This document shows positions 5,970 to 22,534 of a DNA stretch of 57,452 bases, piece after piece. Under the pieces are notes generated by a model that worked only from the letters and a program-made list of their open reading frames with translations, ran no database searches and was not told where the DNA came from. This DNA is from Sulfurimonas sp. Its GTDB lineage: Bacteria > Campylobacterota > Campylobacteria > Campylobacterales > Sulfurimonadaceae. The stretch spans positions 1 to 57,452 of the forward strand of contig NZ_JALXBK010000074.1 in assembly GCF_026991475.1 (NCBI RefSeq), given 5' to 3'. The position numbers and the translations under genes were made by a program. Every line of letters starts with the position of its first letter. Position 1 is the first letter of the stretch.

Positions 5970-6812
5970 ATGCAAAAAATATCAAGACGCGGATTTTTAA
6001 AAGGGGCGGTTGCAGCAGCAACACTGCCACTTGCGCTAAACGCAGCCAACAAGCAAAACGATACACTCAAGTTCATACATGTGACGGATTCACATATGGA
6101 TTTAAGCAACCCTGATTCTGTAGAAGCAGTGGAGATTATGCGAGATTACATCAACACTAATCATAAAGATTTAGACTTTGTACTCTTTGGCGGTGACAAC
6201 TTTAACAACAATGTCGCAGGCGATAAAGACGCAGTCAAATTCAAGACAATTGCAGATGGTCTTCATTGTCCCTACTTTAGCGTACGCGGCAACAAAGAAT
6301 CCTCTCCAAAAGGTGATGATGAGATAAACCTTGCAGAGTTTCAAAAGATGTTCTGCTCAAACGTAGCACTCAAACTTCATGGCAAAGATTGGCTCTTAGA
6401 AGCAAAAGGGTACAACATTTTAGGGCTTGACAGTTGTATCGAGCATCAAAACAACGGTCGCTACACAGAGAAAACACTTGCCTTTGCAGAAGATGTGCTT
6501 AAATCAAACAAACCGACACTTATTCTCAACCATCACCCATACACAAACTACTGGGGTGGTACAGAAGAGAAAGATATTCACAAGTATGTACTCAACAACA
6601 CCAAAGAGGCACAAAAACGTCTTTTCAAATATGACAATCTGTTGCTCACGCTCTCAGGACATAAGCACATTGATTCTGTTTCAGAGATTCAAGGCACAAA
6701 GGTCATTGTGACACGCGGTTTTATACGTCCAAAAGATCTAGATATGTATCCAATGCGTTATGTAGAAATCTCAAAGAATAACATTACAGAGAAACTTATA
6801 TATACAGCATGA
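5970..6812 (+). CDS. Tat-exported calcineurin-like metallophosphoesterase
   Basis: The N terminus has a twin-arginine signal (S-R-R-G-F-L-K, residues 5-11) followed by an Ala-rich stretch, so a folded metalloenzyme is exported to the periplasm. All metallophosphatase motifs are present: D40-x-H42, GGD76N, GN108, H188/H189 and GH231-x-H233. AGGAG lies eight bases before the ATG. The gene overlaps the next by ATGA (6809-6812), which puts it in the cobD operon. Its substrate is unknown. It might dephosphorylate a nucleotide, corrinoid or ribazole phosphate outside the cytoplasm, but nothing in the sequence shows this. Confidence 0.8.
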   Translation: MQKISRRGFLKGAVAAATLPLALNAANKQNDTLKFIHVTDSHMDLSNPDSVEAVEIMRDYINTNHKDLDFVLFGGDNFNNNVAGDKDAVKFKTIADGLHCPYFSVRGNKESSPKGDDEINLAEFQKMFCSNVALKLHGKDWLLEAKGYNILGLDSCIEHQNNGRYTEKTLAFAEDVLKSNKPTLILNHHPYTNYWGGTEEKDIHKYVLNNTKEAQKRLFKYDNLLLTLSGHKHIDSVSEIQGTKVIVTRGFIRPKDLDMYPMRYVEISKNNITEKLIYTA

Positions 6813-7021
6813 AAATAACAATCAACGACTACAATATGCAAAACCTCGAAGCCTTTAGTGAGCTGAAAAAAACTGACATCAGCACACTCATCAATGATGC
6901 GCTTGAGGAGTATTTTGCAAATGAACAGAAAAAACTGCTTGAGAAGAATCTCGCAGATGAAAATGCCATGACAAATCTCGACTTCAACGAATTTTGGGAT
7001 GATGTGGAGATAGACGAATGA
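6809..7021 (+). CDS. Small ribbon-helix-helix-like (antitoxin-like) protein
   Basis: The 70-residue protein begins with a short beta strand (MKITINDYN) and two helices (…LEAFSEL and DISTLINDALEEYF), as in CopG/RHH antitoxins. It has an acidic tail ending in FNEFWDDVEID, a typical toxin-neutralising tail. It overlaps the phosphatase by four bases and cobD by four (ATGA at both ends), so it is co-translated with B12 genes. No toxin gene sits next to it. It is either an orphan antitoxin or a small regulator adopted by the operon; the fold is judged by eye. Confidence 0.6.
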   Translation: MKITINDYNMQNLEAFSELKKTDISTLINDALEEYFANEQKKLLEKNLADENAMTNLDFNEFWDDVEIDE

Positions 7022-8025
7022 TGCTCCACGGTGCAAACATCTACAAATACGCAAGAGAGCTAGACTGCGAACCAGAGGAGATACTCGACTTCTCCTCAAA
7101 CATCAACTGCTACCAGCCAGAACAAGAACTCAATGTTCCAAACGCAGCAATAGTCAAATATGCCGACACAAACTACACAGCACTCAAAAACACCATCGCA
7201 AAAGAGTACCAAATAGATGTAAAATCCATAGCTCTTTACAACGGTGCAACTGCCGCCATCTATGCTCTGATGGATTCGCTCAAAGCAAAAAGTGTCTATC
7301 TCTACGCACCGCTTTATGGAGAGTACCAAAAAGCAGCGCTTAAAAGCAAAAAAGACATCTATAAAATCAACCGTATAGAGAATCTTGACGCAGAGGTAAA
7401 GGAGAAATCCATCATTGTTTTTGTCAACCCATCCACTCCAGAGGGAAGTTACTATGACCTTGATGAGCTCTTTTTGGAGTGGAAAAAGAAAAAGTGTACT
7501 ATCATTTTAGATGAGAGTTTTATAGAGTTTGAAGGGCATAAATCACTGCGAAAACAGATACAAGACTACAAAAAGCTCTACATCATCCAATCTTTTTCAA
7601 AGTTCTACGCCTGTGCAGGTGTACGCATCGGTGCTGTTTTTACCAATAAAAAAAACATAGAAAAAATCACACCACCACTTTGGAATATCTCCTCACTAGA
7701 TGCCGAATTTTTGCAAAAAAGGTTAAGTGATGCTGCGTTTAAACGCAGTGCATTAGAAGTGCACAAAGAGCAAAAACAGCAGCTGCAAAACATCCTCAAA
7801 AGCAGCAATATATTTGAGCAAATAGTAGAAAGTGATGCGAATTTCATCCTCGTACACACGCCAAATGCAGCAGAACTCTTTGAGCATCTCTTAGCGCATA
7901 AAATCCTTGTACGGACTTGTGGGAGTTTTGATTATTTGAGTGATGAATGGCTGCGTTTTGCTGTAAAAGATGCAGAAGCTCATAAGAAATTACAAGCTGC
8001 GTTTGAAAGCTTTACTAAGCTATAA
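7018..8025 (+). CDS. cobD: L-threonine-O-3-phosphate decarboxylase (CobD, Salmonella naming; CobC in Pseudomonas)
   Basis: This PLP enzyme of the histidinol-phosphate aminotransferase fold makes (R)-1-aminopropan-2-ol O-2-phosphate, which CbiB attaches to the corrin ring. Recognisable features are the N-terminal HGANIYKYA and LDFSSNIN blocks typical of CobD, NPSTPEGS near 137-144, the Asp of ILDESF (D165) and the PLP lysine K195 in SFSKFYACAGVRIG. At 335 residues it is slightly shorter than average. The start is ATG 7018 or 7021. The gene carries the palindromic pair of octamers at 7733-7748. Confidence 0.88.
   Translation: MMLHGANIYKYARELDCEPEEILDFSSNINCYQPEQELNVPNAAIVKYADTNYTALKNTIAKEYQIDVKSIALYNGATAAIYALMDSLKAKSVYLYAPLYGEYQKAALKSKKDIYKINRIENLDAEVKEKSIIVFVNPSTPEGSYYDLDELFLEWKKKKCTIILDESFIEFEGHKSLRKQIQDYKKLYIIQSFSKFYACAGVRIGAVFTNKKNIEKITPPLWNISSLDAEFLQKRLSDAAFKRSALEVHKEQKQQLQNILKSSNIFEQIVESDANFILVHTPNAAELFEHLLAHKILVRTCGSFDYLSDEWLRFAVKDAEAHKKLQAAFESFTKL
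7733..7748. repeat. Dispersed octamer AAACGCAG; here as a perfect 16-bp palindromic pair
   Basis: CTGCGTTTAAACGCAG joins two inverted copies of an octamer scattered through the window. Plus-strand copies start at 5484, 6049, 7140, 7741, 11661, 12357, 13207, 13579, 14361, 14658, 14688, 16024, 17431, 17854, 18391, 18904, 22664, 26916, 29633, 29777, 30308, 30559, 33095, 37924 and 38005. Minus-strand copies (CTGCGTTT) start at 3097, 7733, 7951, 7997, 11861, 12754, 13143, 22462, 31645, 34081, 35834, 40543, 43267, 46270, 46850, 46894 and 52483. The base before the A-run is a pyrimidine in all but two. All lie in coding sequence, and none lies between 8026 and 11511. Confidence 0.9.
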
Positions 8026-8034
8026 TAGTATAAT
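8021..8034 (+). promoter_or_regulatory. Tandem TATAAT elements before the ATPase/HNH pair
   Basis: Two TATAAT hexamers (8021-8026, overlapping the cobD stop, and 8029-8034) precede the GTG start at 8054. The accessory pair can thus be transcribed on its own as well as by read-through from cobD. Confidence 0.45.
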
Positions 8035-8053
8035 TTAACTTTTTTGGACAATC

Positions 8054-9670
8054 GTGGAACTAATATATTTATGGGTTGAAAAGTATAAAAACATTAAAAC
8101 ACAAGGGTTTAATTTTTCACCTCGGTTTGAGTGTAGCTATGATGAAGCAACTCAAGAGCTGACTATTGATGAAAAAAAAGATTATGTGAATATTTTTCCT
8201 GAAAATATAAATATAACTGCTATTGTTGGGGAGAATGGGAGCGGGAAGAGTAGTATTTTAGAAGTACTAAAAAAAATATTAGATTATATTCCTTATACTG
8301 AATTGGGATATGGTTCTTCTGATAAACAAGAATATCCATTTTCTTTTATTATTGTTGTAAAGACTGGTGATAAAATTCAATATATTTCTAGTTTTTCTAT
8401 TCATGCAAATATAGATAAAGCCAATATTTTAGGACATTATAATTATTATCTGTATTTAGCTGATGATCAAAAACCAATAAGTGAAGAATACAGAACAGAT
8501 AAATTGACACACCATAGGTTTTCTCTTGATAATAGTGTAATAGCACAAATGCTCACAAGTCAATATGTAGCCAATATTGATTTTAAGCTAACTACATTTA
8601 TGTATTTACCTACCAAGATTGAGATAAAACCAATAAAGTTGCATGAGCTCTTTGCCGAACTTATAGGGGATTATGAACAAGGGTTTGGTGTTTCAGACAT
8701 TGACTTATCTCTTGATATGTCAGATAAGGAATTTGAAAGTGCTCGAAAAAATACAAGAAATCAATCATTTGCAAAAGCCGATGATTTAAATGAAATATTT
8801 ATTCATACACAAGATAATTTTCATAAATATTTAATCATATGGTATATAAAAGAGTATGGGGACGATGATTATTATCAATTTGAAGATAAAGATTTTTTAT
8901 CAAAAGAATACACTGCGCAAGTAAATTCAATAAATGAAAAAGAGTTTAATGAATACTTTAAAGAAAAAGAAAAAGAAATAAATACATTGACTAAAAGAGA
9001 AAAAGAAATATATTTTAATTATTGTAAAGACTTTTTTGAATTTGATTTTATAGATTTAGAAAATAGAAAATTTAATCATCTAAGTCATGGTGAACAAACT
9101 ATATTTTCTCAGTTTTTAAATATATACTATTTTTCACTCTATGATAAAGAAAAAATCTTTTTATTTTTAATGGACGAACCAGATTTATCATTGCATCCCC
9201 AGTGGCAGAAGAAATATTTATTTGAATTATATAATCTATTAAATAGAATTAATTTTACTTTTAATATAATACTCACAACTCATTCTCCATTTATTCTCTC
9301 AGATTTGCCAAAAGAAAATATAAAATTTTTAAAGGGTGGCAAACAAACAGAGGTAAATATAGATACTTTTGGAGCGAATATCCATACCCTATTGTCTCAT
9401 GGCTTTTTTATGCAAGATGGGCTTATGGGAGAGTTTGCGAAAGAGAAAATGAATGAAGTTATTAAAATCTTAAAACGAAAAAGAGTCTCTCAAAAAAATT
9501 TAGATTACTGTAAAAAAATTATCTCTATTATTGGAGAACCTATTTTAAAATCAACTCTTGAAAAAATGTTAGACGACAAATTACATACGAATGACACTGA
9601 ACTTAAAAAACTTGAAAGAGAACAAAAAGAGATTCAAGAAAAAATAAATAAACTCAAAGACAATCAATGA
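8054..9670 (+). CDS. AAA/ABC-type ATPase of a Septu-like (PtuA-like) defence pair
   Basis: The 538-residue protein has an SMC/OLD-type split ATPase: Walker A GENGSGKSS (59-67), a 270-residue insert, an ABC-like signature LSHGEQ (343-348), Walker B LFLMDEP with E375, and a switch His in TTHSPF (H410). The C-terminal 40 residues are a charged coiled coil. The stop overlaps the next start (ATGA). ATPase followed by HNH nuclease is the layout of Septu (PtuA/PtuB) anti-phage systems. No reverse transcriptase is present, so it is not a retron Ec78-type module. The start is GTG. The gene is visibly more AT-rich than the B12 genes around it, which suggests transfer. Confidence 0.75.
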   Translation: MELIYLWVEKYKNIKTQGFNFSPRFECSYDEATQELTIDEKKDYVNIFPENINITAIVGENGSGKSSILEVLKKILDYIPYTELGYGSSDKQEYPFSFIIVVKTGDKIQYISSFSIHANIDKANILGHYNYYLYLADDQKPISEEYRTDKLTHHRFSLDNSVIAQMLTSQYVANIDFKLTTFMYLPTKIEIKPIKLHELFAELIGDYEQGFGVSDIDLSLDMSDKEFESARKNTRNQSFAKADDLNEIFIHTQDNFHKYLIIWYIKEYGDDDYYQFEDKDFLSKEYTAQVNSINEKEFNEYFKEKEKEINTLTKREKEIYFNYCKDFFEFDFIDLENRKFNHLSHGEQTIFSQFLNIYYFSLYDKEKIFLFLMDEPDLSLHPQWQKKYLFELYNLLNRINFTFNIILTTHSPFILSDLPKENIKFLKGGKQTEVNIDTFGANIHTLLSHGFFMQDGLMGEFAKEKMNEVIKILKRKRVSQKNLDYCKKIISIIGEPILKSTLEKMLDDKLHTNDTELKKLEREQKEIQEKINKLKDNQ

Positions 9671-10533
9671 AAAAAGTTGACTTGTCTAGTTTAAATTTAG
9701 AAGAGTATTTCACTTCAATCAATATTGAAAATATAAAAAATAAATTAAGTATTCCTAAATATAAAAAAATAACTGATAGATTAGAACTTTTAATAAAAGC
9801 AGATTTACCAACAATAAAAAAATATCTTAATATAGCAAATTATTACTCTTTAGAAGAAAAAAAAGAGATAGAAAAGGCTTTTAACTACTCTGCACATAGA
9901 CAAAAAGAAAAGTTTATGAAGCATTTTAAAAAACTGAATCTAAAAAGTTGTCCATTTTGCAATAACAACTATATCTATTTTTATACAAAAGGCGATGGCA
10001 AGGCTAACACCTTAGCTACGCTAGAACACTATTATCCAAAAGCAAAATATCCACATCTCTCACTCTCTTTTTATAACCTCATACCCAGTTGTAGTATATG
10101 CAATAGCAAGTTTAAAGGGAACAAAGAGCAGGAAGGCAAAATTGTTCATCCATATTATGATGATTTTAATGAGAATGCAAAGTTTAGTATAAATGTAAAC
10201 AGTTTAGATGTTAACAAAGATATAGAATTAGAGGTAAATTTAAACTCAATTGATGAGAAATGTAAAACTTCTATAGAGAGATTCCAATTAGAGAAAATTT
10301 ACAAACAACATAATGATATAGCAAAAGAGATATGGAATAAAGCGCAAGCTTATAATGAAGATAGAATAAATGAACTTTATGAAAGTTTTTATAAAAATTT
10401 GGGGTACTCACAAGAGGATGTCAAAAACTTTGTTTTTTGTAGTTATTTGGATAAAAAAGATATACATAGGAAAAATCATACAAAACTGACACAAGATATT
10501 TTAAAACAATTTGGACTTATTACAAGGAGCTAG
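9667..10533 (+). CDS. HNH endonuclease of a Septu-like (PtuB-like) defence pair
   Basis: The 288-residue protein has a zinc-structured HNH core: C95-P-F-C98, then L-E-H121 (catalytic His), N137 in SFYNLIPSC, and C142/C145-N-S-K. An HPYYDDF motif follows near 161-167, as in PtuB-type and related ATPase-linked HNH proteins. The N-terminal ~90 residues are Lys-rich and helical. The start overlaps the ATPase stop by four bases. The likely role is phage-triggered cleavage of DNA or tRNA under control of the ATPase. The family assignment is by motif and gene order only. Confidence 0.75.
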   Translation: MKKVDLSSLNLEEYFTSINIENIKNKLSIPKYKKITDRLELLIKADLPTIKKYLNIANYYSLEEKKEIEKAFNYSAHRQKEKFMKHFKKLNLKSCPFCNNNYIYFYTKGDGKANTLATLEHYYPKAKYPHLSLSFYNLIPSCSICNSKFKGNKEQEGKIVHPYYDDFNENAKFSINVNSLDVNKDIELEVNLNSIDEKCKTSIERFQLEKIYKQHNDIAKEIWNKAQAYNEDRINELYESFYKNLGYSQEDVKNFVFCSYLDKKDIHRKNHTKLTQDILKQFGLITRS

Positions 10534-10542
10534 ATTTACTAT

Positions 10543-10617
10543 GAAAGAATTTGAACCTAAACTTTTTCCATTTTCACATACTTCTGGCTATGTTAAAAAA
10601 ATACAAAACTGTTAACA
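10543..10617 (+). CDS. Possible 24-residue ORF after the HNH gene
   Basis: An ATG at 10543 follows an AAGGAG sequence that overlaps the end of the HNH gene, and opens 24 codons ending at TAA 10615-10617. The product (MKEFEPKLFPFSHTSGYV plus six residues) is not recognised. It may be a small third component of the defence pair, a gene remnant, or chance. Confidence 0.25.
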
Positions 10618-10641
10618 CAAGTACAAAAAGCAAAATAAAGA

Positions 10642-10857
10642 ATGAAATCTTTAAGTATCTTCAGAACAAGCAGCGATTCTGGCAAATCAACACTGAGTTT
10701 TGCCATAACATACCTACTGCACAAACGCGGCATAAATGTCGCTCCCTTTAAAGCGCAAAATGTCTCGAACAACTCTCAAGTTACCGACCTAAATGCAGGG
10801 GAGATCGCCATACCTCAAGCCTTTGCGGCTGAATCAATTGGGCTTCAAACTGTTTGA
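10642..10857 (+). pseudogene. 5' fragment of a second cobQ (cobyric acid synthase)
   Basis: The 71 codons match the first 70 of the intact cobQ at 11512, including the P-loop region, then stop after an unrelated Val codon. By hand alignment about 32 of 207 bases differ (about 84-85% identity), but only seven residues differ, so most changes are synonymous. This is a homologue from a related lineage that diverged under selection before it was cut, not a fresh tandem duplication. The glutamine amidotransferase part is absent, so it cannot be a working cobyric acid synthase. Confidence 0.85.
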
Positions 10858-10866
10858 AAGTTTTAA

Positions 10867-11208
10867 CTAACTCAACACCTCATCGAGCAAACTTTTAATA
10901 TAGTTCGTCTCTTGCAAAGAGAGGTGTGTGAGCTTTTCAATAAATCTGCTATTGTCAATAGAACGGATTTGTGCTATTAAGACATCAGAATCCTGCTGTA
11001 ATTTATCTTGTGCTTTTACTCTATAACGCAATGGTTCTGCATCATCTATTAACTGCGTTGAAATGGGTAAAATCACAGAAGTAGGATATGCCCCTGCATT
11101 TAGCTCATCACTCTGTAAAACCAAAGCAGGACATACTTTACCTACCTCATTGTTTTTTTTTACAGGGTTGAGATTTACCAACCAAATATCTCCCCTAGAG
11201 ACCATCAC
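10867..11208 (-). CDS. MazF/PemK-family endoribonuclease toxin
   Basis: The 113-residue protein carries the MazF fold: GDIWLVNLNPVKKNNEVGKVCPALVLQSD at the N terminus with the conserved substrate-loop region, VILPIS near 46-51, and the QIRSID block near 80-85. MazF toxins cleave mRNA at short sequences when their antitoxin is degraded. Its start overlaps the antitoxin stop by 14 bases. It lies on the opposite strand to the neighbouring B12 genes, between the cobQ fragment and intact cobQ. Confidence 0.87.
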   Translation of the reverse strand: MMVSRGDIWLVNLNPVKKNNEVGKVCPALVLQSDELNAGAYPTSVILPISTQLIDDAEPLRYRVKAQDKLQQDSDVLIAQIRSIDNSRFIEKLTHLSLQETNYIKSLLDEVLS

Positions 11209-11422
11209 TCAAACCATCCTCTAACTCTTTATAGACTTTATAATCCTCTTTCATTGTTTTGCTCATTGCCTTTTGTAGGCGTGTCTTTTGATTCTTTTGC
11301 AAATCTTGGGCATAAAAGCGAATAGCCTCACGAATAACATCACTTTTCTTTTTATGAAAACGCTTAGATATGGAGTTGAGAAGCTCTTCAAGTTCATCAT
11401 TAAGTCTGACTGTTGCTACCAC
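11195..11422 (-). CDS. Ribbon-helix-helix antitoxin of the MazF-type toxin
   Basis: The 75-residue protein begins with the RHH strand VATVRLNDELEELL and the helix KSDVIREAIRFYAQDL, and ends in an acidic/Lys tail (EDYKVYKELEDGL) suited to binding MazF. The RHH domain should also bind its own promoter, which overlaps the divergent cobQ promoter (11452-11487). That could couple cobQ expression to the toxin-antitoxin pair. Confidence 0.83.
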   Translation of the reverse strand: MVATVRLNDELEELLNSISKRFHKKKSDVIREAIRFYAQDLQKNQKTRLQKAMSKTMKEDYKVYKELEDGLSDGL

Positions 11423-11451
11423 TGGAGACTCCTTTTGTAGTTTGTATTACA

Positions 11452-11487
11452 GTATTATAGCATATTATATAAAGTCAGTTATAATAC
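11452..11487. promoter_or_regulatory. Divergent promoters of the antitoxin and cobQ, in an inverted repeat
   Basis: GTATTATA (11452-11459) and TATAATAC (11480-11487) are exact inverted repeats 20 bases apart. Each contains a TATAAT -10 facing outward, one for the antitoxin and one for cobQ. An RHH antitoxin bound here would be placed to repress both genes. The binding is inferred. Confidence 0.5.
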
Positions 11488-11511
11488 TCTCACATAAACT
11501 ATAGGAATATT

Positions 11512-12900
11512 ATGAACTCACTAAGTATCTTCGGCACAAGCAGCGATGCAGGGAAATCAACACTGAGTTTTGCCATTACCTACTTACTGCATGAAAGAGG
11601 CATAAAAGTTGTTCCTTTTAAGGCGCAAAATGTCTCAAACAACTCTCAAGTCACCGACCTAAACGCAGGAGAGATTGCCATCCCTCAAGCCTTTGCAGCT
11701 GAAGCGATAGGGCTGCAAACCTCGCCGCGTATGAACCCTATTTTACTCAAATCAGGCGGCAGATCAAAAGCACATCTTATCATTAATGGTAAAAGTGTTG
11801 GAGACAAAGATGTCTGGAGCTATTACCGTGACATTGACACGCTTAAACCTTTTGTAAAAGCTGCGTTTAAGCATTTGCAAAAAGAGTATGATGTTATAGT
11901 AGCTGAAGGTGCGGGAAGTCCTGTCGAATTAAACTTGATGAAAAAAGACCTCTCAAATATCTATGTTGCTAAAAAATTCAATACAAAGATAATTCTCGTA
12001 GCAGATATAGAGCGTGGTGGTGTTTTTGCCTCTATCTATGGCGTTTATAAACTCCTGCCAAAGAAACTGCGTAAAAATATCATCGGTGTCATTGTCAATA
12101 AATTTCAAGGCGATATGTCACTCTTTGATAGCGGTGTAGAAATCATTGAACAGAGGTTTGGAATAAAGGTCTTAGGAGTTGTACCATTCAAGCCCTTTAA
12201 TCTCGGCTTTGAAGACAGTGCCTCACTGATGGGTTACAAACAGGATACAAAAAATGCCATCATAAAAGTTGGGGTACTAAAACTTCCCCACATTTCAAAC
12301 TTTACCGACTTTGAGCCTTTGGTAGTCGATAGTGAAATAGAACTCACATTTATATCAAACGCAGTAGAAGCTGCTGCTTGTGAGATGCTTATTATTCCTG
12401 GGAGTAAACGGGTTGTAGATGATTTACTATGGCTAAAAGAGAGAGGTTTTGATGCTGTTTTATCCTCAAAAGAGAAAATGATAGTTGGTATTTGTGGTGG
12501 CTATGAGATGTTATTTGAGGAGATTTTAGACCCTCTTCACATTGAAAGCGAACAAGGAATGGTAGCCGGTCTTGGTAGATTTAAAGGAAGTGTTACCTTT
12601 CAAAAAGAGAAAATTGTCAAAAAAGGGTGCTACAATATATGGGGAACAATGGCAGAGGGGTATGAGATACATAACGCCATTGCAAAGAAAAATGCCAAAC
12701 ACAAACGCAATCTTTATGCTACATTTGTGCATGGTATCTTTGAAAATGACGCACTGCGTTTGAAACTTTTTTCTAAAATCAATGCCAACTACAAAGGCTA
12801 CAATTTCAAAGAGTTTAAAGCTGGGGCGATTAAAGAGTTTGCAAATCATATAGACAAACACGTAGATATGGGCTTTATTGAAGCGAGTTTGTGTGAGTAA
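11512..12900 (+). CDS. cobQ: Cobyric acid synthase CobQ/CbiP
   Basis: CobQ amidates side chains b, d, e and g of adenosylcobyrinate a,c-diamide. The 462-residue protein is near full length for the family (about 480-500). The P-loop GTSSDAGKST (8-17) is followed by [11 protein letters not shown] and the GRSKAHLIINGKSVGD block. The C-terminal amidotransferase domain has VGICGGYEML with its nucleophile Cys near 329, and the partner His in FVHGIFEN. It is the intact counterpart of the fragment at 10642. Its end overlaps cbiB. Confidence 0.93.
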   Translation: MNSLSIFGTSSDAGKSTLSFAITYLLHERGIKVVPFKAQNVSNNSQVTDLNAGEIAIPQAFAAEAIGLQTSPRMNPILLKSGGRSKAHLIINGKSVGDKDVWSYYRDIDTLKPFVKAAFKHLQKEYDVIVAEGAGSPVELNLMKKDLSNIYVAKKFNTKIILVADIERGGVFASIYGVYKLLPKKLRKNIIGVIVNKFQGDMSLFDSGVEIIEQRFGIKVLGVVPFKPFNLGFEDSASLMGYKQDTKNAIIKVGVLKLPHISNFTDFEPLVVDSEIELTFISNAVEAAACEMLIIPGSKRVVDDLLWLKERGFDAVLSSKEKMIVGICGGYEMLFEEILDPLHIESEQGMVAGLGRFKGSVTFQKEKIVKKGCYNIWGTMAEGYEIHNAIAKKNAKHKRNLYATFVHGIFENDALRLKLFSKINANYKGYNFKEFKAGAIKEFANHIDKHVDMGFIEASLCE

Positions 12901-16480: not shown

Positions 16481-19259
16481 AACGCCCTCTTTTTCTCACA
16501 TAGTTTTTCTTAAAACAGCGCTGACAAATATTATAATTTGAATTTATAGGCAGTACAGCAGAGCACATTTTACATCTTTGTGCTAAGTGTGTCTGCTGCA
16601 AAGACTCTTCTATATATTTGTTTAAAACACCACGATACTGTCTCGCCTTTTGCTCATCCACAAAATAATCACCAAATCTATAAGTTAGCCATAAATAGAG
16701 TGAAATCTCTTTTACCATATCTTCTGCACGAAGTAAATCTTCTGAAGTTCTTGCACAACTACCCCCTAATTTTGGTGGGTAGTAATGCACCTGCTCTTTT
16801 TGCTCCAAAGCAAGCAGATAGCTCTCGTAAGCATTAATGATGTAAGGCGACTTCAGCGTAAGCGGAGCACATGAGAGATGGTACTTTGTTGCAATGTCAA
16901 GGTCATACGCATCTACTATTTTTGCAGCTTCAAGCATATCATCTAAAGATGAGGCATAAAAAGGACCATCAAACACCATATTTTTAATGAAAAATCGTAA
17001 AATTTCCTCTAATGAGTTCTCTTCCAAAATTTTTGCCACAAGTTTAATATGCTCAAGATTTGCCATTACTTTAAAAGGAATGGCTATTTCATGCGCCTCT
17101 TTAGGAAAGTTTTTCTTGACAATTTTTAGAGCATCTTCATTTAAAGCTCCAACATAACCATTTTCATGAAGTCCATATCGCCCTGCTCGTCCTGCTATTT
17201 GATGGATTTCTGAGGGTTGTAGTTTTCTTTGACTTATACCGTCAAACTTCTCAGCTTTTGAAAAAAGTACCGTTTTTATAGGTAAATTCATTCCCATAGC
17301 GATGGCATCGGTTGCTACAAGTATCTGCGTTTCACCCTCACGAAAACGGCGTGCTTCCTCTCGTCTAACCTCTGGAGAGAGGTTTCCATAAACAACACTT
17401 ACCTCAAAATCTTTTGAGAAGTTCTGCTTCAAACGCAGTACATCTTTTCGGCTAAAGGCAATGATGGCAGTTCCTGCTTCAACATCTTTTGGCGCAGTAG
17501 CAGAGGCGAGTAGTTCAAGTGGATTTTTACGCTCAAATTCAATGATTTCAAGCTCTTCACCGAGATACTCAGCAAGGGCGACTATTGCCTCTCTTACATT
17601 AGCACTTCCAGTCATAATGACCTCTTTAGCAGGCGCGCCAATGATGGCATTTGCCCATGCCCAGCCACGATCTCTATCATCTATCATTTGAACTTCATCA
17701 ATGACACAAACATCTACATCCACATCATAGTTCATCATCTCAATGGTAGAACTAATGTGCGTTGCTTCATCATCAAGAATCTGCTCTTCACCCGTTATAA
17801 GCGAACTCTCAATACCCTCAGCTTTAAGCGTTTCATACCCCTCTAACGCCAACAAACGCAGTGGTGCAAGATAGTAACCTGTATCTGCCTCTTTAAGTGT
17901 TTGCATCGCTTTGTAGGTCTTTCCACTATTGGTAGGTCCAATGTGCAACACGAGTTTTCGACGCATTGTTCGTGCAATGGGAAAGAGGTTTTTAAAGTCA
18001 CGAATGGTTCTAGCTAAGAGTTCCTGACGCTGTTTTTTAATCAACTCATCATGAATGGAACGAACAAATCGTCTTATGATTTTTTTTGCTATCTTGGGTG
18101 TAATAACAAGGCTCTTTGGCATCAACTCAAATAAAAATTCATACACTTTTTGATGTAGCTCTTCATCACTTAAATGCAGTAGCATCGAGTATTTCGCACA
18201 CTCTTGCACCAAATCTGCTAAAGAGGCATAAAATTCCTCTTCATGCTCCTTTTTTGCCTCAGCAAGAACCGCATCAAAATTAAAACGCTTCGAGTTCCAT
18301 ATCTCTTCAAGTAATCCCTCAAGCTCAATGTGCAGCTCTAGGTTATAATCCATTTTCAAATCAGAGTATGGCAGCGTTGCATACTCTGTCAAACGCAGCA
18401 GTACCTCTTCATCATGCAACTCTATTGCATCTACATCAATTTTTGCCTCTATTATCTCTTTAAGTACTTTTTGTGTGATAAGTGGATAATTCACTTTAGT
18501 TTTTGGCGGTGAAGCACGCAAAGAGTCTAAAATCTGCTTTGTTGTAAGATAGGAGTGTGGATACTTCAAAGAGGAGAGAAATTTATCAATGCTCTTTTGT
18601 TTATGTTGTACAGTTTCTACTTTATCGTGTGCAATTTTTTCTACTATTGCTTCAAAAGGCTCTTCTTGTAGATACTCATAAGTGTATGGTTTAGTATTTA
18701 GTGTCAAAATCTTATGAAAATGCTGTTCGTAGAGTTCATATTTCAAAGAGGCATTAAACTCAAAAGAGTCATCTATGTCAAAACTTCCCTCAAGTTCGCG
18801 TTCGAGCTTCTCTTTTTTTATCTCAAAACGGATGTGACGCAAAGAGCTTTCCATCTTCTCAATGGTAATTTTTTTACTTCTTACATGAGAGTATGCTTCT
18901 CGTAAACGCAGCGCTTCCATAGGTGTAGCCGCAAGCTCTTCTATGAGTGCCTCAATCTTCACTTCTCTGTCAAATCCCACTTCAGGTTTTGGTTTAAGAG
19001 ATTTATAAACACGCCCATCACTCTCAAAAAAGGTCAATATATCACGACGCATCGCACTCTCAGCCTCACTCCATATCATACGAAGCGTTTTTACCATAAG
19101 CGTTTTGTTGTGGTCAATGTCATAGATGCCAAGCGTTGCAAAAAGCTCACTCAGCGTCTTCCCATCAACGCGTTCAATCCCCACATCAAAAGGGTCATCA
19201 TCAAAATACTTTCTAATTCTTTGGTTAATTTTACTATTTTTCTTATTTTTTCTTGCCAT
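16470..19259 (-). CDS. SUV3-like ATP-dependent RNA helicase with C-terminal zinc ribbon
   Basis: The 929-residue protein has a 430-residue N-terminal helical region of unknown role, then a superfamily 2 helicase core: Walker A GPTNSGKT (441-448), [15 protein letters not shown], motif II DEVQ (521-524), MTGSAN (motif III), [12 protein letters not shown] (motif V) and [10 protein letters not shown] (motif VI). These are the Suv3 (SUPV3L1) motifs. In mitochondria Suv3 unwinds RNA for decay. The C terminus has C896-x2-C899 … C912-x2-C915, a zinc ribbon. Family membership is clear; the bacterial role is not. Confidence 0.87.
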
Positions 19260-19290
19260 AATGTAATTGTAGCCTATTATTTGCTTATTA

Positions 19291-21426
19291 TTAAAAATCC
19301 ACCTCTATAAGTGGTTCAGCAAAATAATAACCTTGAGCATAATCAATACCTAACTCTTTTACAACATTAAAGACCTCTTCATTATGAACAAACTCTGCAA
19401 TAATCTTCATATCTAATTTTCTTGCAATAAATACAAGTGACTCAACAATATGAAAATGTTTTTTGTTTGTGTCAATATCTTTGATAAAGCTACCATCTAT
19501 CTTAATAAAAGAGGCACATAACTCAGTTAATTTTGACATGTTTGAACTCTCAACACCAAAATCATCAATAGCAATAACAAAACCTAAATCACTTAATTGA
19601 TTGATTTGCTGAATAATAGCATCTTCATCATCGATGGCGACATCTTCTAAAATCTCTAATGTTACATTTGAAGGCTTAATATTATGTCTTTTTGCTTTTG
19701 CTTGTAAAAAATCGCTTAAATAGTTTTCTAATAAATCTTGCTTTGTAATATTTATACTAAACTGCACAGAACTTGATTCAAAATACAAAAATGTTTTTTG
19801 AATCATCTGTTTTGTTATAGAACTATGTAAACCTGCAACTTCTGCTGCTTCCATAAATAGATATGGTGAAATTATTTTATCACCATCTTTAATACGAGCA
19901 AGAGCCTCATACTTAAAAGTTTTTTCTGTTTTTACATCCACTATAGCCTGATAAAAAGGAGTAAGTGCCTCATTCTCTAAATCTTTTTGTAAAATTGCAA
20001 TGTTTTTTGAAAGTTGTGTATAAGAACCTACTTTACTCATATTCGGACTATAGATCACAATAAATGACCTTCCTCGATGCTTCGCTTCAAGAAGAGCAAT
20101 ATTTGCCTGAGAGAAGAGATCATTATTGTTTTCTTCATCATTCTCCTCACCTGATATACCCACAGAAAAACTAAGATGAATATGCACATCATCCACAATG
20201 GCTGGAGTTACTTCAAAATATGATTTTATTTGAGAAGATAACAAAATATCTTGTTTAGGTGTTGGTTCATTTAATACAATTGTAAATTCATCAAAATCCA
20301 TATGGTATAAAGAGGCATTTCTTGGAAGATTTTCTATTAAATATTGAGAAGTTACTTTTAAAACAGATTTAACAAGTTCTCCTCCATAAGTCGTCTTTAA
20401 GATGTCAATATTATCAATTTTTAGTATAAAAATGACATAGCGATTAAGACTCTGCACTTTATCTTGAAAAACTTTCAAGTTTGGAAGTGCTGTTATACTA
20501 TTATGTCGCGATTGAAAAGAGAGTGTATCAACTTTTGTTTGTATTTCATTTTCTCTTTTATAAATTATACCTATAAAATAATTCACCACAAAATTGATTA
20601 TAAAAATAGCCATAAGTGCTAAAACAGTCCCAACAAATAAAAGCATATATAGTAAATTTTTTCTATCATTTAAGTTTGGGGTAGCATTATAAAATGAGAG
20701 CAACATTATTTTATTTTTACTATTTTCCACTCTACTATAAAGACTATACTCTTTACCTTCTATCATAACAATATTAGGAAAAGACTCCCCTTTATCATAC
20801 TGTTCTATAAAATTTTTAATTATTGGTGATGAGGCATATAACAAATTTATTTTTTGATTTTTAAAAAAAATTAAAGCAATGTTTTTATGATAATAAGCAT
20901 AAAGGTTTGTCATTATCCTTTTAGCATCATATGAAAACTCCACTACACCCAAAAAACTATTTTTTACATAAACAGGTCTAACAATTTCATAATGGCAAAT
21001 CCCTTTTTCAAGTTCAAAACCACTCTGTATCTGTCTTGTTTCTAAGGCATTTTTTTCAAAATAATGCATTTTTGAGAAACTACTCTTTTGAATAAACTCT
21101 ATTTTTTTTAAAGATGGAACAAATGCTTTATAAGTTAAAAATTGCTTGTTTAGAACTATATTCCTCTCTTTTTTATTTTTTAAACTATCTAAAATATCTT
21201 GATTTTTAATAAACAAAGCTTTTGTAATATTCATATTTATTTCAGTAAAATGTTTTAAATAACCATCTATTGTACGCATAGAGAAATCATGTTCTAATAT
21301 TATACGTTTATTAATTTTAGTTGCAGTCATGGTAGATATAAAAAATATTACGCCAAGAAGTGTTACTAAAAATAGTGTTATTAAAACTATTTTTGCACGA
21401 AGAGAAGCTTTTTTATTTGTCAGCAT
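19291..21426 (-). CDS. Membrane sensor with degenerate GGDEF and intact EAL domain (c-di-GMP phosphodiesterase)
   Basis: TM1 (about 13-33) and TM2 (about 259-285) enclose a 220-residue periplasmic sensor, probably Cache-like. The GGDEF domain has M-D-F-D-E-F (376-381) in place of the signature, so it should not make c-di-GMP. The EAL domain keeps E-A-L (507-509), NITKQDL, LEILEDVAIDDED, the IDDFG block, IKIDGSFI and QGYYFAEPL. Hydrolysis of c-di-GMP is therefore the likely activity. Such an enzyme could influence a Lap-type adhesin like the one at 39-57 kb, though no direct link is visible. Confidence 0.88.
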   Translation of the reverse strand: MLTNKKASLRAKIVLITLFLVTLLGVIFFISTMTATKINKRIILEHDFSMRTIDGYLKHFTEINMNITKALFIKNQDILDSLKNKKERNIVLNKQFLTYKAFVPSLKKIEFIQKSSFSKMHYFEKNALETRQIQSGFELEKGICHYEIVRPVYVKNSFLGVVEFSYDAKRIMTNLYAYYHKNIALIFFKNQKINLLYASSPIIKNFIEQYDKGESFPNIVMIEGKEYSLYSRVENSKNKIMLLSFYNATPNLNDRKNLLYMLLFVGTVLALMAIFIINFVVNYFIGIIYKRENEIQTKVDTLSFQSRHNSITALPNLKVFQDKVQSLNRYVIFILKIDNIDILKTTYGGELVKSVLKVTSQYLIENLPRNASLYHMDFDEFTIVLNEPTPKQDILLSSQIKSYFEVTPAIVDDVHIHLSFSVGISGEENDEENNNDLFSQANIALLEAKHRGRSFIVIYSPNMSKVGSYTQLSKNIAILQKDLENEALTPFYQAIVDVKTEKTFKYEALARIKDGDKIISPYLFMEAAEVAGLHSSITKQMIQKTFLYFESSSVQFSINITKQDLLENYLSDFLQAKAKRHNIKPSNVTLEILEDVAIDDEDAIIQQINQLSDLGFVIAIDDFGVESSNMSKLTELCASFIKIDGSFIKDIDTNKKHFHIVESLVFIARKLDMKIIAEFVHNEEVFNVVKELGIDYAQGYYFAEPLIEVDF

Positions 21427-21523
21427 TTTCCCACTTTTTTTCCACTATTATAGTGAGTTATAAATATAAATGCAATAATTCAAATAATTTCGTCACTTAA
21501 AACAGTAAAATACAAACTATGCT

Positions 21524-22174
21524 CTAGGCTCTAGCACTAATAAGCAGAAAAACGCTGAAGTAGTGAAAAACACTTCCTCCAAGAACGAAGAGATGCCATA
21601 CTGCGTGATTAAGTTTCATGCTATCTTTGACATAGAAAAAGATGCCTACAGTATAGGTCACACCTCCTGCTAAAAGTAAAGAGAAGAAAAGCCAGCCTGC
21701 ATGCTCAATAAGGGGTTGATAAGCGATGATGATGAGCCACCCCATCACAGCATAAAGTACCAATGAAAAAACCTCAAACCTAGCCGGAAAAGCAAACTTT
21801 AGGTAGACCCCAAGCAGAGCAAAAAACCAGATAATACCAAGCAATAGCCAACCAAAAACACCCTGCACACCAAGGACAACCACTGGCGTATATGTTGCTG
21901 CTATAAGTATGTATATGGCAGCATGGTCAAAAAGTTGCAGTAATGATTTTGCTTTGTAGTATGGCACGGCGTGGTAAAGGGTAGAAGCACCATACATACT
22001 TAAAAGACCCAAACCAAAGACAATACTCGTCCATATTTTTTGCCCATCACCACTCTCAATAGAGAGAGCAAAAAGTACTCCAAATCCAAAAGTGCTTAAA
22101 AAAAGCCCAAATCCATGTGTAATTGCATGCCAAATCTCTTCAAAAATCGAAAAATCATTTATTTCTCTTTGCAT
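21524..22174 (-). CDS. Haemolysin III / PAQR-family membrane protein
   Basis: This integral membrane protein has seven predicted helices and the family's metal ligands: EEIWHAITHGFG near the N terminus, the ASTLYHAVPY block, LFDHAAIYILIAATYTP, and a C-terminal HAVWHLFVLGGSVFHYF. The longer open frame starts at 22240, but I choose the ATG at 22174: AAGGAAG lies six bases before it and the longer form would overlap the divergent rhodanese promoter. Bacterial members have been linked to membrane lipid homeostasis; haemolytic activity is not implied. Confidence 0.85.
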   Translation of the reverse strand: MQREINDFSIFEEIWHAITHGFGLFLSTFGFGVLFALSIESGDGQKIWTSIVFGLGLLSMYGASTLYHAVPYYKAKSLLQLFDHAAIYILIAATYTPVVVLGVQGVFGWLLLGIIWFFALLGVYLKFAFPARFEVFSLVLYAVMGWLIIIAYQPLIEHAGWLFFSLLLAGGVTYTVGIFFYVKDSMKLNHAVWHLFVLGGSVFHYFSVFLLISARA

Positions 22175-22201
22175 AGTTAGCTTCCTTTTACATCTAATTG
22201 C

Positions 22202-22207
22202 TATAAT
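22202..22207 (+). promoter_or_regulatory. TATAAT -10 element six bases before the rhodanese ATG
   Basis: As at bluB, a perfect TATAAT sits so close to the start codon (22214) that the transcript would begin at or near the ATG. No Shine-Dalgarno sequence is present. Confidence 0.45.
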
Positions 22208-22213
22208 TATAGT

Positions 22214-22534
22214 ATGAATTATCCAAATGAATGGACTCAAAAAGAGTTTTTAGAAAATAAAAAACAATTACAAAAAGAGGGAGTGGATGTTGTGCTTGTC
22301 GATACCATCCTCTCTCCCATCGAAAAAGCCGATACTATAACCTATAATCCTTATGAGATGAAAAACTATGCTGATGGTACTGTTTTTGTCTTCTACTGCG
22401 ATACAGGCAAGGCGACACTTAATCGTCTCAAAGAGTACAGAGAAAAGTTTCCACAACATCACTGCGTTTCACTCAAAGGTGGACGGGGATATTGGCGTAA
22501 AAATATGATGCTTTTGGATGAAAATGATAAATAA
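22214..22534 (+). CDS. Rhodanese-like domain protein
   Basis: The 106-residue single-domain protein has the rhodanese core: VVLVDTIL near 26-33, FVFYC62DTGKAT as the active-site loop with the catalytic Cys at 62, and a C-terminal LKGGRGYW block. It should carry persulfide sulfur in the cytoplasm. No earlier or later start fits, so the promoter-adjacent ATG is likely real. It overlaps the DUF309 gene, which suggests a two-gene operon. Confidence 0.8.
   Translation: MNYPNEWTQKEFLENKKQLQKEGVDVVLVDTILSPIEKADTITYNPYEMKNYADGTVFVFYCDTGKATLNRLKEYREKFPQHHCVSLKGGRGYWRKNMMLLDENDK

Follow-up and report, generated by a model that had tools for sequence, protein, structure and literature searches.

The cobC–cobQ segment

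The segment between a cobD/cobC-type aminotransferase gene (hereafter cobC) and cobQ of a vitamin B12 operon was analysed in a 57,452-nucleotide stretch of DNA from the sulfur-oxidising bacterium Sulfurimonas sp. (contig NZ_JALXBK010000074.1, hereafter the window), and the 5′ flank of cobQ was found to be a genus-wide landing site. The genome that carries the window (designated G000) measures 2.07 Mb, and its nearest named relatives are Sulfurimonas metagenome-assembled genomes. A sequence-only reading of this DNA had placed an ATPase–HNH pair, a broken cobQ start and a toxin–antitoxin (TA) pair between cobC and cobQ, with neither transposase nor integrase. All of these parts were found (Table 1), and no open reading frame (ORF) for a transposase, integrase or other recombinase and no tRNA was detected near the segment. 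The marks of an integrase-borne island (integrase or transposase, att repeats, tRNA site) were thus missing, and the repeat at the edge is the cobQ start itself.

Table 1. Features of the cobC–cobQ segment (positions in the window)
Feature	Position	Strand	Remarks
cobD/cobC-type aminotransferase (L-threonine-O-3-phosphate decarboxylase-like)	7018–8025	+	left flank; TIGR01140 is the best NCBIfam family, with a score (238.6 bits) under the family cut-off
ATPase, PtuA-like, PDC-M62A, 538 aa	8054–9670	+	GTG start (ATG in G014); 28 bp past the upstream gene
HNH nuclease, PtuB-like, PDC-M62B, 288 aa	9667–10533	+	4-bp overlap with the ATPase gene
Degenerate palindromic repeat (TATGTTAAAAAAAT..TTAACA)	10589–10620	+	copies elsewhere 3′ of SoFic genes
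cobQ 5′ fragment, 210 nt, then stop	10642–10851	+	85% identity to the intact cobQ start
PemK/MazF-type toxin, 113 aa	10867–11208	-	PF02452, 84.8 bits (cut-off 23.1)
RHH (CopG-type) antitoxin, 75 aa, overlapping the toxin start	11195–11422	-	RHH_1 PF01402, 21.6 bits (cut-off 20.5)
Intergenic, inverted antitoxin gene to new cobQ start	11423–11511		TATAAT-like hexamers present
Intact cobQ with second 5′ allele	11512–12900	+	NF001989, 454.4 bits (cut-off 273)

The PemK-like toxin, which scored above its cut-off, and the small overlapping antitoxin gene form a type II TA pair of the PemK/MazF kind, predicted to act as an addiction or defence module. The intergenic stretch behind the inverted antitoxin gene probably has to supply the promoter for cobQ, and a promoter scan showed that its TATAAT-like hexamers are not above chance in number. 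The ATPase and HNH genes had been described as AT-richer. This held, with a GC content of 0.26 and third-position GC of 0.18 (ATPase) and 0.23 (HNH) versus 0.33–0.42 in the flanking cob genes. Only this part of the segment is AT-rich; the TA part has an ordinary GC of 0.37–0.38, like that of the flanking genes.

Identity of the ATPase–HNH pair

The best PADLOC models for the two adjacent genes were PDC-M62A for the ATPase (E 1.3e-106) and PDC-M62B for the HNH protein (E 3e-58), with the PtuA (1e-20) and PtuB (1e-9) models far behind. Alignment of 28 ATPase homologues including the window protein showed that Walker A (G59–S66), LSxGE (343–347), D374–E375 and H410 are kept, so that Walker A, signature, Walker B and H-loop are all present, as in the PtuA-type ATPases of Septu in the broad sense. 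A conserved block (TFGANIHTLLSHGFFM-DGLMGEFAK) follows the H-loop. A profile of the 28 ATPases matched solved PtuA chains with E values of 8e-23 to 4e-18 (8ee4: 3.7e-18), and the predicted structure of the ATPase also found PtuA chains first, although the confidence of this model was low (predicted local distance difference test, pLDDT, 67). In the HNH protein, C95, C98, H121, N137, C142, C145 and N146 were invariant or nearly so across 35 homologues. With an E value of 5e-5, the profile of these homologues matched the HNH subunit of a retron I-A complex. The structure predicted for the HNH protein (pLDDT 86) matched ten PtuB-type chains from Septu and retrons at Z 11.7–13.4 over residues 1–288, and the next-best HNH structure reached a Z of only 4.3; a Foldseek search with the same model returned PtuB for all of the top four hits (best E 0.02).

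The ATPase-first order of the two genes, which is the layout of broad-sense Septu, was retained in nearly all homologous loci, and the distribution of the pair was patchy (29/135 genomes of the genus, 65/398 of the order). As the sequence-only reading had proposed, the PADLOC run and the profile and structure matches support homology to PtuA/PtuB, and the pair is classed here, from sequence and predicted structure, as a Septu-like two-gene system of a known kind, probably directed against phages. It is not the retron form, because no reverse transcriptase is present. A literature search found no description of the function of PDC-M62. Among PDC-M62-like pairs at loci L099–L137, the ATPase and HNH trees conflict, which suggests shuffling of subunits between pairs; in L131 and L137 the ATPase gene is split from the HNH gene by an MNT/HEPN-like two-gene insertion.

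Relatives and layering of the insertion

The upstream regions of 97 Sulfurimonas cobQ loci were inspected, and 40 downstream flanks were compared. The results agreed with the earlier view of the segment as accessory DNA in a B12 operon: it is absent from the same place in most relatives, and the cobC 3′ end overlaps the cobQ start without interruption in 27/97 loci, including the sister group of G000 and G014 (G444 and G023). In the nearest relative, G014, whose cobQ is 94% identical at the amino acid level, the ATPase–HNH pair lies at the same site and intact cobQ follows directly, without TA genes or fragment. The G014 copy is spread over two contigs that overlap inside the HNH gene, and its junctions match those of G000 (28-bp left gap; 108-bp right gap, 100/108 identical). 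Because G014 has the pair only and the site is empty in G444 and G023, the pair came first, and the layer of cobQ fragment and TA genes is later and private to G000. The proposal of one recent island thus gives way to two events.

The two copies of the pair are unusually alike. Third-position identity between G000 and G014 was 0.967 in the ATPase gene and 0.91–0.93 in the HNH gene, compared with 0.79 in cobC, 0.74 in cobQ, 0.80 in cbiB, 0.67 in the PDP264 gene and 0.83 and 0.87 in further genes; an AT-rich native control gene gave 0.85 (ATPase versus control, Fisher P = 4e-12). Identity climbs near 7975 and drops near 10600, close to both module ends. As the pair is far more alike than the adjacent genes, these sequence comparisons suggest that the module was probably exchanged between the G000 and G014 lineages after their split, via homologous flanks.

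The cobQ fragment is 89.5% identical to G014 cobQ, and its upstream side is orthologous to the HNH–cobQ junction of G014. It is decaying, as seen in G8R, by which the P-loop glycine is lost. Third-position identity was 0.66 between the fragment and the intact cobQ start and 0.76 between either of them and G014; being more distant from each other than from G014, the two represent two alleles and not a fresh duplication. A simple recent tandem duplication of cobQ was also considered and ruled out, since the copies are 15% apart. The differences between the fragment and G014 lie mainly at third positions, implying that the fragment was functional for most of the divergence. A maximum-likelihood tree of the 210-nt part placed the fragment with G014, with no usable support value. 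The later layer shows cobQ homology at its right junction and a sudden break after fragment nt 210 at its left, and no donor was found for it.

The cobQ 5′ flank as a landing site in Sulfurimonas

Homologues of defence or TA families were present within 4.2 kb 5′ of cobQ in 25/97 loci and in 0/40 downstream flanks (Fisher P = 1e-4, for query families first seen upstream). The families identified 5′ of cobQ with Pfam and PADLOC were Septu-like pairs, RhuM (PDC-S05), SoFic, MazEF, HipA-like, NTP_transf_8, HEC-01, HsdR, Tmn and DUF1706. The cobQ-adjacent Septu-like pairs (G000 with G014, G453, G438, G432 and G015) occupy five separate positions in the HNH tree, and by this measure such pairs reached the site independently about five times. 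Sisters with an empty site were found for G438 (G378) and G453 (G455). The genus holds about 36 ATPase loci, and to find five of them at one junction is far above chance even if just 100 junctions were open (P = 3e-5). In G457, a 58-nt cobQ stump (100% identical) is followed by a HipA-like gene and then by intact cobQ, a second instance of cobQ breakage and renewal.

Across Campylobacterales, the pair was also seen beside smpB/ispE, a radical-SAM gene, luxS and a C-N hydrolase gene (L103, L113, L114, L120, L111, L136, L104 and L112; gene names assigned by eye). No recombinase was noticed by eye at those sites, some of which are common to several families. In the B12 clusters of many Sulfurimonas genomes, a 70-aa protein (6809–7021 in the window), which has no Pfam or NCBIfam match, is 51–97% conserved just before cobC or before cobQ.

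Copies of a palindromic repeat (TATGTTAAAAAAAT..TTAACATA) follow SoFic genes on the 3′ side, at cobQ as well as in other places (G011, G445 twice, G016). The repeat also stands before cobQ in G438, G429 and G014, with a degenerate form in the window. The SoFic-linked repeats (L336, L338, L348, L343, L147 and L154) are single or tandem, and in their variants both arms change together (TATGGGTAA/TTACCCATA, TGTCGG/CCGACA). The repeat in the window is probably a scar left by a SoFic gene that once occupied the site, and hence a sign of module replacement there. Identity of the repeat with a Xer/dif site was considered and rejected, the Sulfurimonas denitrificans dif having a different sequence (PMC2731167). 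A small ORF between the HNH gene and cobQ (22–24 aa in the window, about 33 aa in G014) was likewise not accepted as a gene and is more likely a repeat-bearing leader.

The octamer

The octamer AAACGCAG/CTGCGTTT occurs 43 times in the window versus 1.7 expected, and genome-wide in G000 1344 times versus 39 for the reversed control (about 34-fold), equally on both strands. The claim that the segment is free of it stands, as none lies between 7997 and 11661. The further claim that this gap independently marks recent acquisition was not borne out, and the gap was rejected as dating evidence. Three gaps in the window are longer than its 3664 bp; a gap of this size has a Poisson P of 0.07 if the mean of the window is taken, and is rarer when set against the B12 region around it, where the octamer is dense. 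The fifth-longest gap (18904–22462) spans a native AT-rich gene that is also present in G014, indicating that the gap in the segment follows composition. In sum, what the sequence-only reading had observed was confirmed, and its interpretation was partly supported.

The octamer is strongly enriched in scattered members of the genus (1367 copies in G014, 1822 in G016, 2331 in G489, 1698 in G372) and at background level in most. From these counts it is a candidate DNA uptake sequence; a literature search returned nothing on point for an uptake sequence in Campylobacterota, or for Sulfurimonas with defence and transformation.

Proposed explanation and alternatives

We consider it fairly likely that defence genes were inserted here in two layers, at a landing site immediately 5′ of cobQ that has been used repeatedly in Sulfurimonas. 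The first layer would be the stand-alone Septu-like pair, which entered between cobC and cobQ and reads the same way as the operon. Later, and only in G000, PemK/RHH would have arrived fused to the cobQ start of another strain, a different allele; at the join the resident cobQ would have been cut short after its first 210 nt, and the 5′ end that came in would have replaced its own, so that cobQ remains intact. The modules would most likely move when the B12 genes on either side recombine homologously, and the second layer by homology-facilitated recombination with one homologous junction, in cobQ, and one illegitimate junction. The DNA probably entered by natural transformation; ComEC is encoded in G000 and G014, and a control search finds it in many other genomes too. 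By analogy with PtuAB, the ATPase may keep the nuclease inactive and permit cutting upon phage infection, and the nuclease would probably cleave host tRNA or other nucleic acid, whereupon the infected cell stops growing. What is unusual is that the start of a core gene has been renewed repeatedly at a site with no visible recombinase.

Several points weigh against this explanation. The choice of query families biases the comparison of upstream and downstream flanks, and inspection by eye showed other TA or restriction genes in 4/40 downstream flanks. The ATPase model is of low confidence, and the activity of the pair is a prediction from sequence. The high third-position identity between G000 and G014 could in part reflect unusual constraint, and a 210-nt fragment is too short for a supported call of the native allele. 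The relatives searched included no donor in which PemK/RHH is joined to cobQ, and the TA relatives that were found lie elsewhere, though a PemK gene of G477 (69%; L355, 4558–4899 in reverse-complement coordinates) sits inverted in the B12 cluster, with the PDP264 gene on one side and cobC on the other.

The order of the two layers might also be reversed, with PemK/RHH already before cobQ and a G014-like donor piece (cobC end, ATPase, HNH, cobQ 5′ end) inserted upstream of it. The great likeness of the pair compared with its flanks, the contiguity of the fragment with the HNH gene and the occurrence of the same TA family in the G477 B12 cluster agree with this order. However, identity falls to the ordinary species level inside the fragment, and the mainly third-position differences are those of a functional gene and not of a freshly imported stump, which makes this order unlikely. 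We judge slightly less probable an old local duplication, in which the cobQ 5′ end was duplicated and the TA genes inserted in the common ancestor and G014 then lost the insert by recombination between the cobQ copies. Such recombination across 210-bp repeats would restore cobQ exactly, and the distance to G014 is about the same for the fragment and the intact start; but this scenario requires an additional loss in G014, no trace is seen in the next relatives (G444 and G023), and the third-position bias implies a functional fragment during most of the divergence.

Two layers of defence genes are also favoured over the view that the pair is a repair or housekeeping SMC-like ATPase–nuclease. Generic AAA/SMC matches do occur, but the patchy distribution, the landing site shared with known defence families, best models that are defence candidates and a partner with the PtuB fold make a housekeeping role very unlikely. 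Site-specific insertion, by an unseen recombinase that acts at the palindromic repeats or the cobQ 5′ end and moves cassettes, is the least probable alternative. In its favour, the repeat lies about 55 bp upstream of cobQ, behind different cassettes, in G014, G438, G429, G461 and G497. Against it, the repeat also accompanies SoFic genes away from cobQ, no copy was seen at most of the cassettes next to cobQ (G453, G432, G395, G493 and G465), its sequence differs from the dif of S. denitrificans, and cassette boundaries vary.

Beyond the two-layer insertion, the cobQ 5′ end may tentatively be pictured as a self-renewing docking point for defence, although we regard this as rather doubtful. Naturally competent cells would swap whole modules (Septu-like, RhuM, SoFic, TA) through recombination in B12 genes without a mobile element, some arrivals would bring a fresh cobQ start and leave stumps of the old one, and in this lineage the octamer AAACGCAG may serve as a DNA uptake sequence and so aid uptake. 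The usual sources to which defence genes are traced are prophages, integrative elements and plasmids; here a core biosynthetic gene appears to be the anchor at which different defence modules replace one another, with no recombinase in sight. Since empty sister sites, an exchange tract and gene stumps can all be read, a single locus makes it possible to test whether immunity turns over by recombination, and members of the genus may in addition carry an octamer resembling an uptake sequence.

Comparison with known systems

The closest counterpart is the PADLOC candidate PDC-M62, which both window proteins match best, as adjacent genes; its best models are longer than the window proteins (601 versus 538 aa and 328 versus 288 aa). 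In the Bacillus cereus group, DefenseFinder ‘Septu’ and PADLOC ‘PDC-M62’ were called at 203 same loci (PMC11811056). With Septu type I (PtuA–PtuB; Escherichia coli 8ee4, 8eea), the pair shares adjacent genes for an ABC/SMC-type ATPase and an HNH protein and a whole-length PtuB fold (Z 12.1 to 8eea), but its sequence similarity is weaker to PtuA/PtuB than to PDC-M62. The nearest solved structures for both subunits are the effectors of the type I-A retrons Ec78 and Ec83 (Septu type II). The window differs from these retrons in that it has no reverse transcriptase, with 28 bp before the ATPase gene and the cobQ fragment and TA genes after the HNH gene, and both proteins missed the retron I-A NCBIfam equivalog cut-offs (57/500 bits for NF041760 and 22/150 bits for NF041761). 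Defence by the E. coli Septu EcB88 requires ATPase and HNH residues, and EcB88 and retron-Eco7 cut tRNA-Tyr in the variable loop in infected cells (PMC13096335).

As an arrangement, the cobQ site resembles the displacement of effector–immunity genes in the type VI secretion system (T6SS) of Vibrio cholerae, where repeated insertions at one anchor leave gene remnants behind and homology-facilitated illegitimate recombination has been proposed for the effector arrays (PMC5361080). The T6SS clusters displace effector genes, whereas at cobQ the anchor is a core biosynthetic gene that is kept whole.

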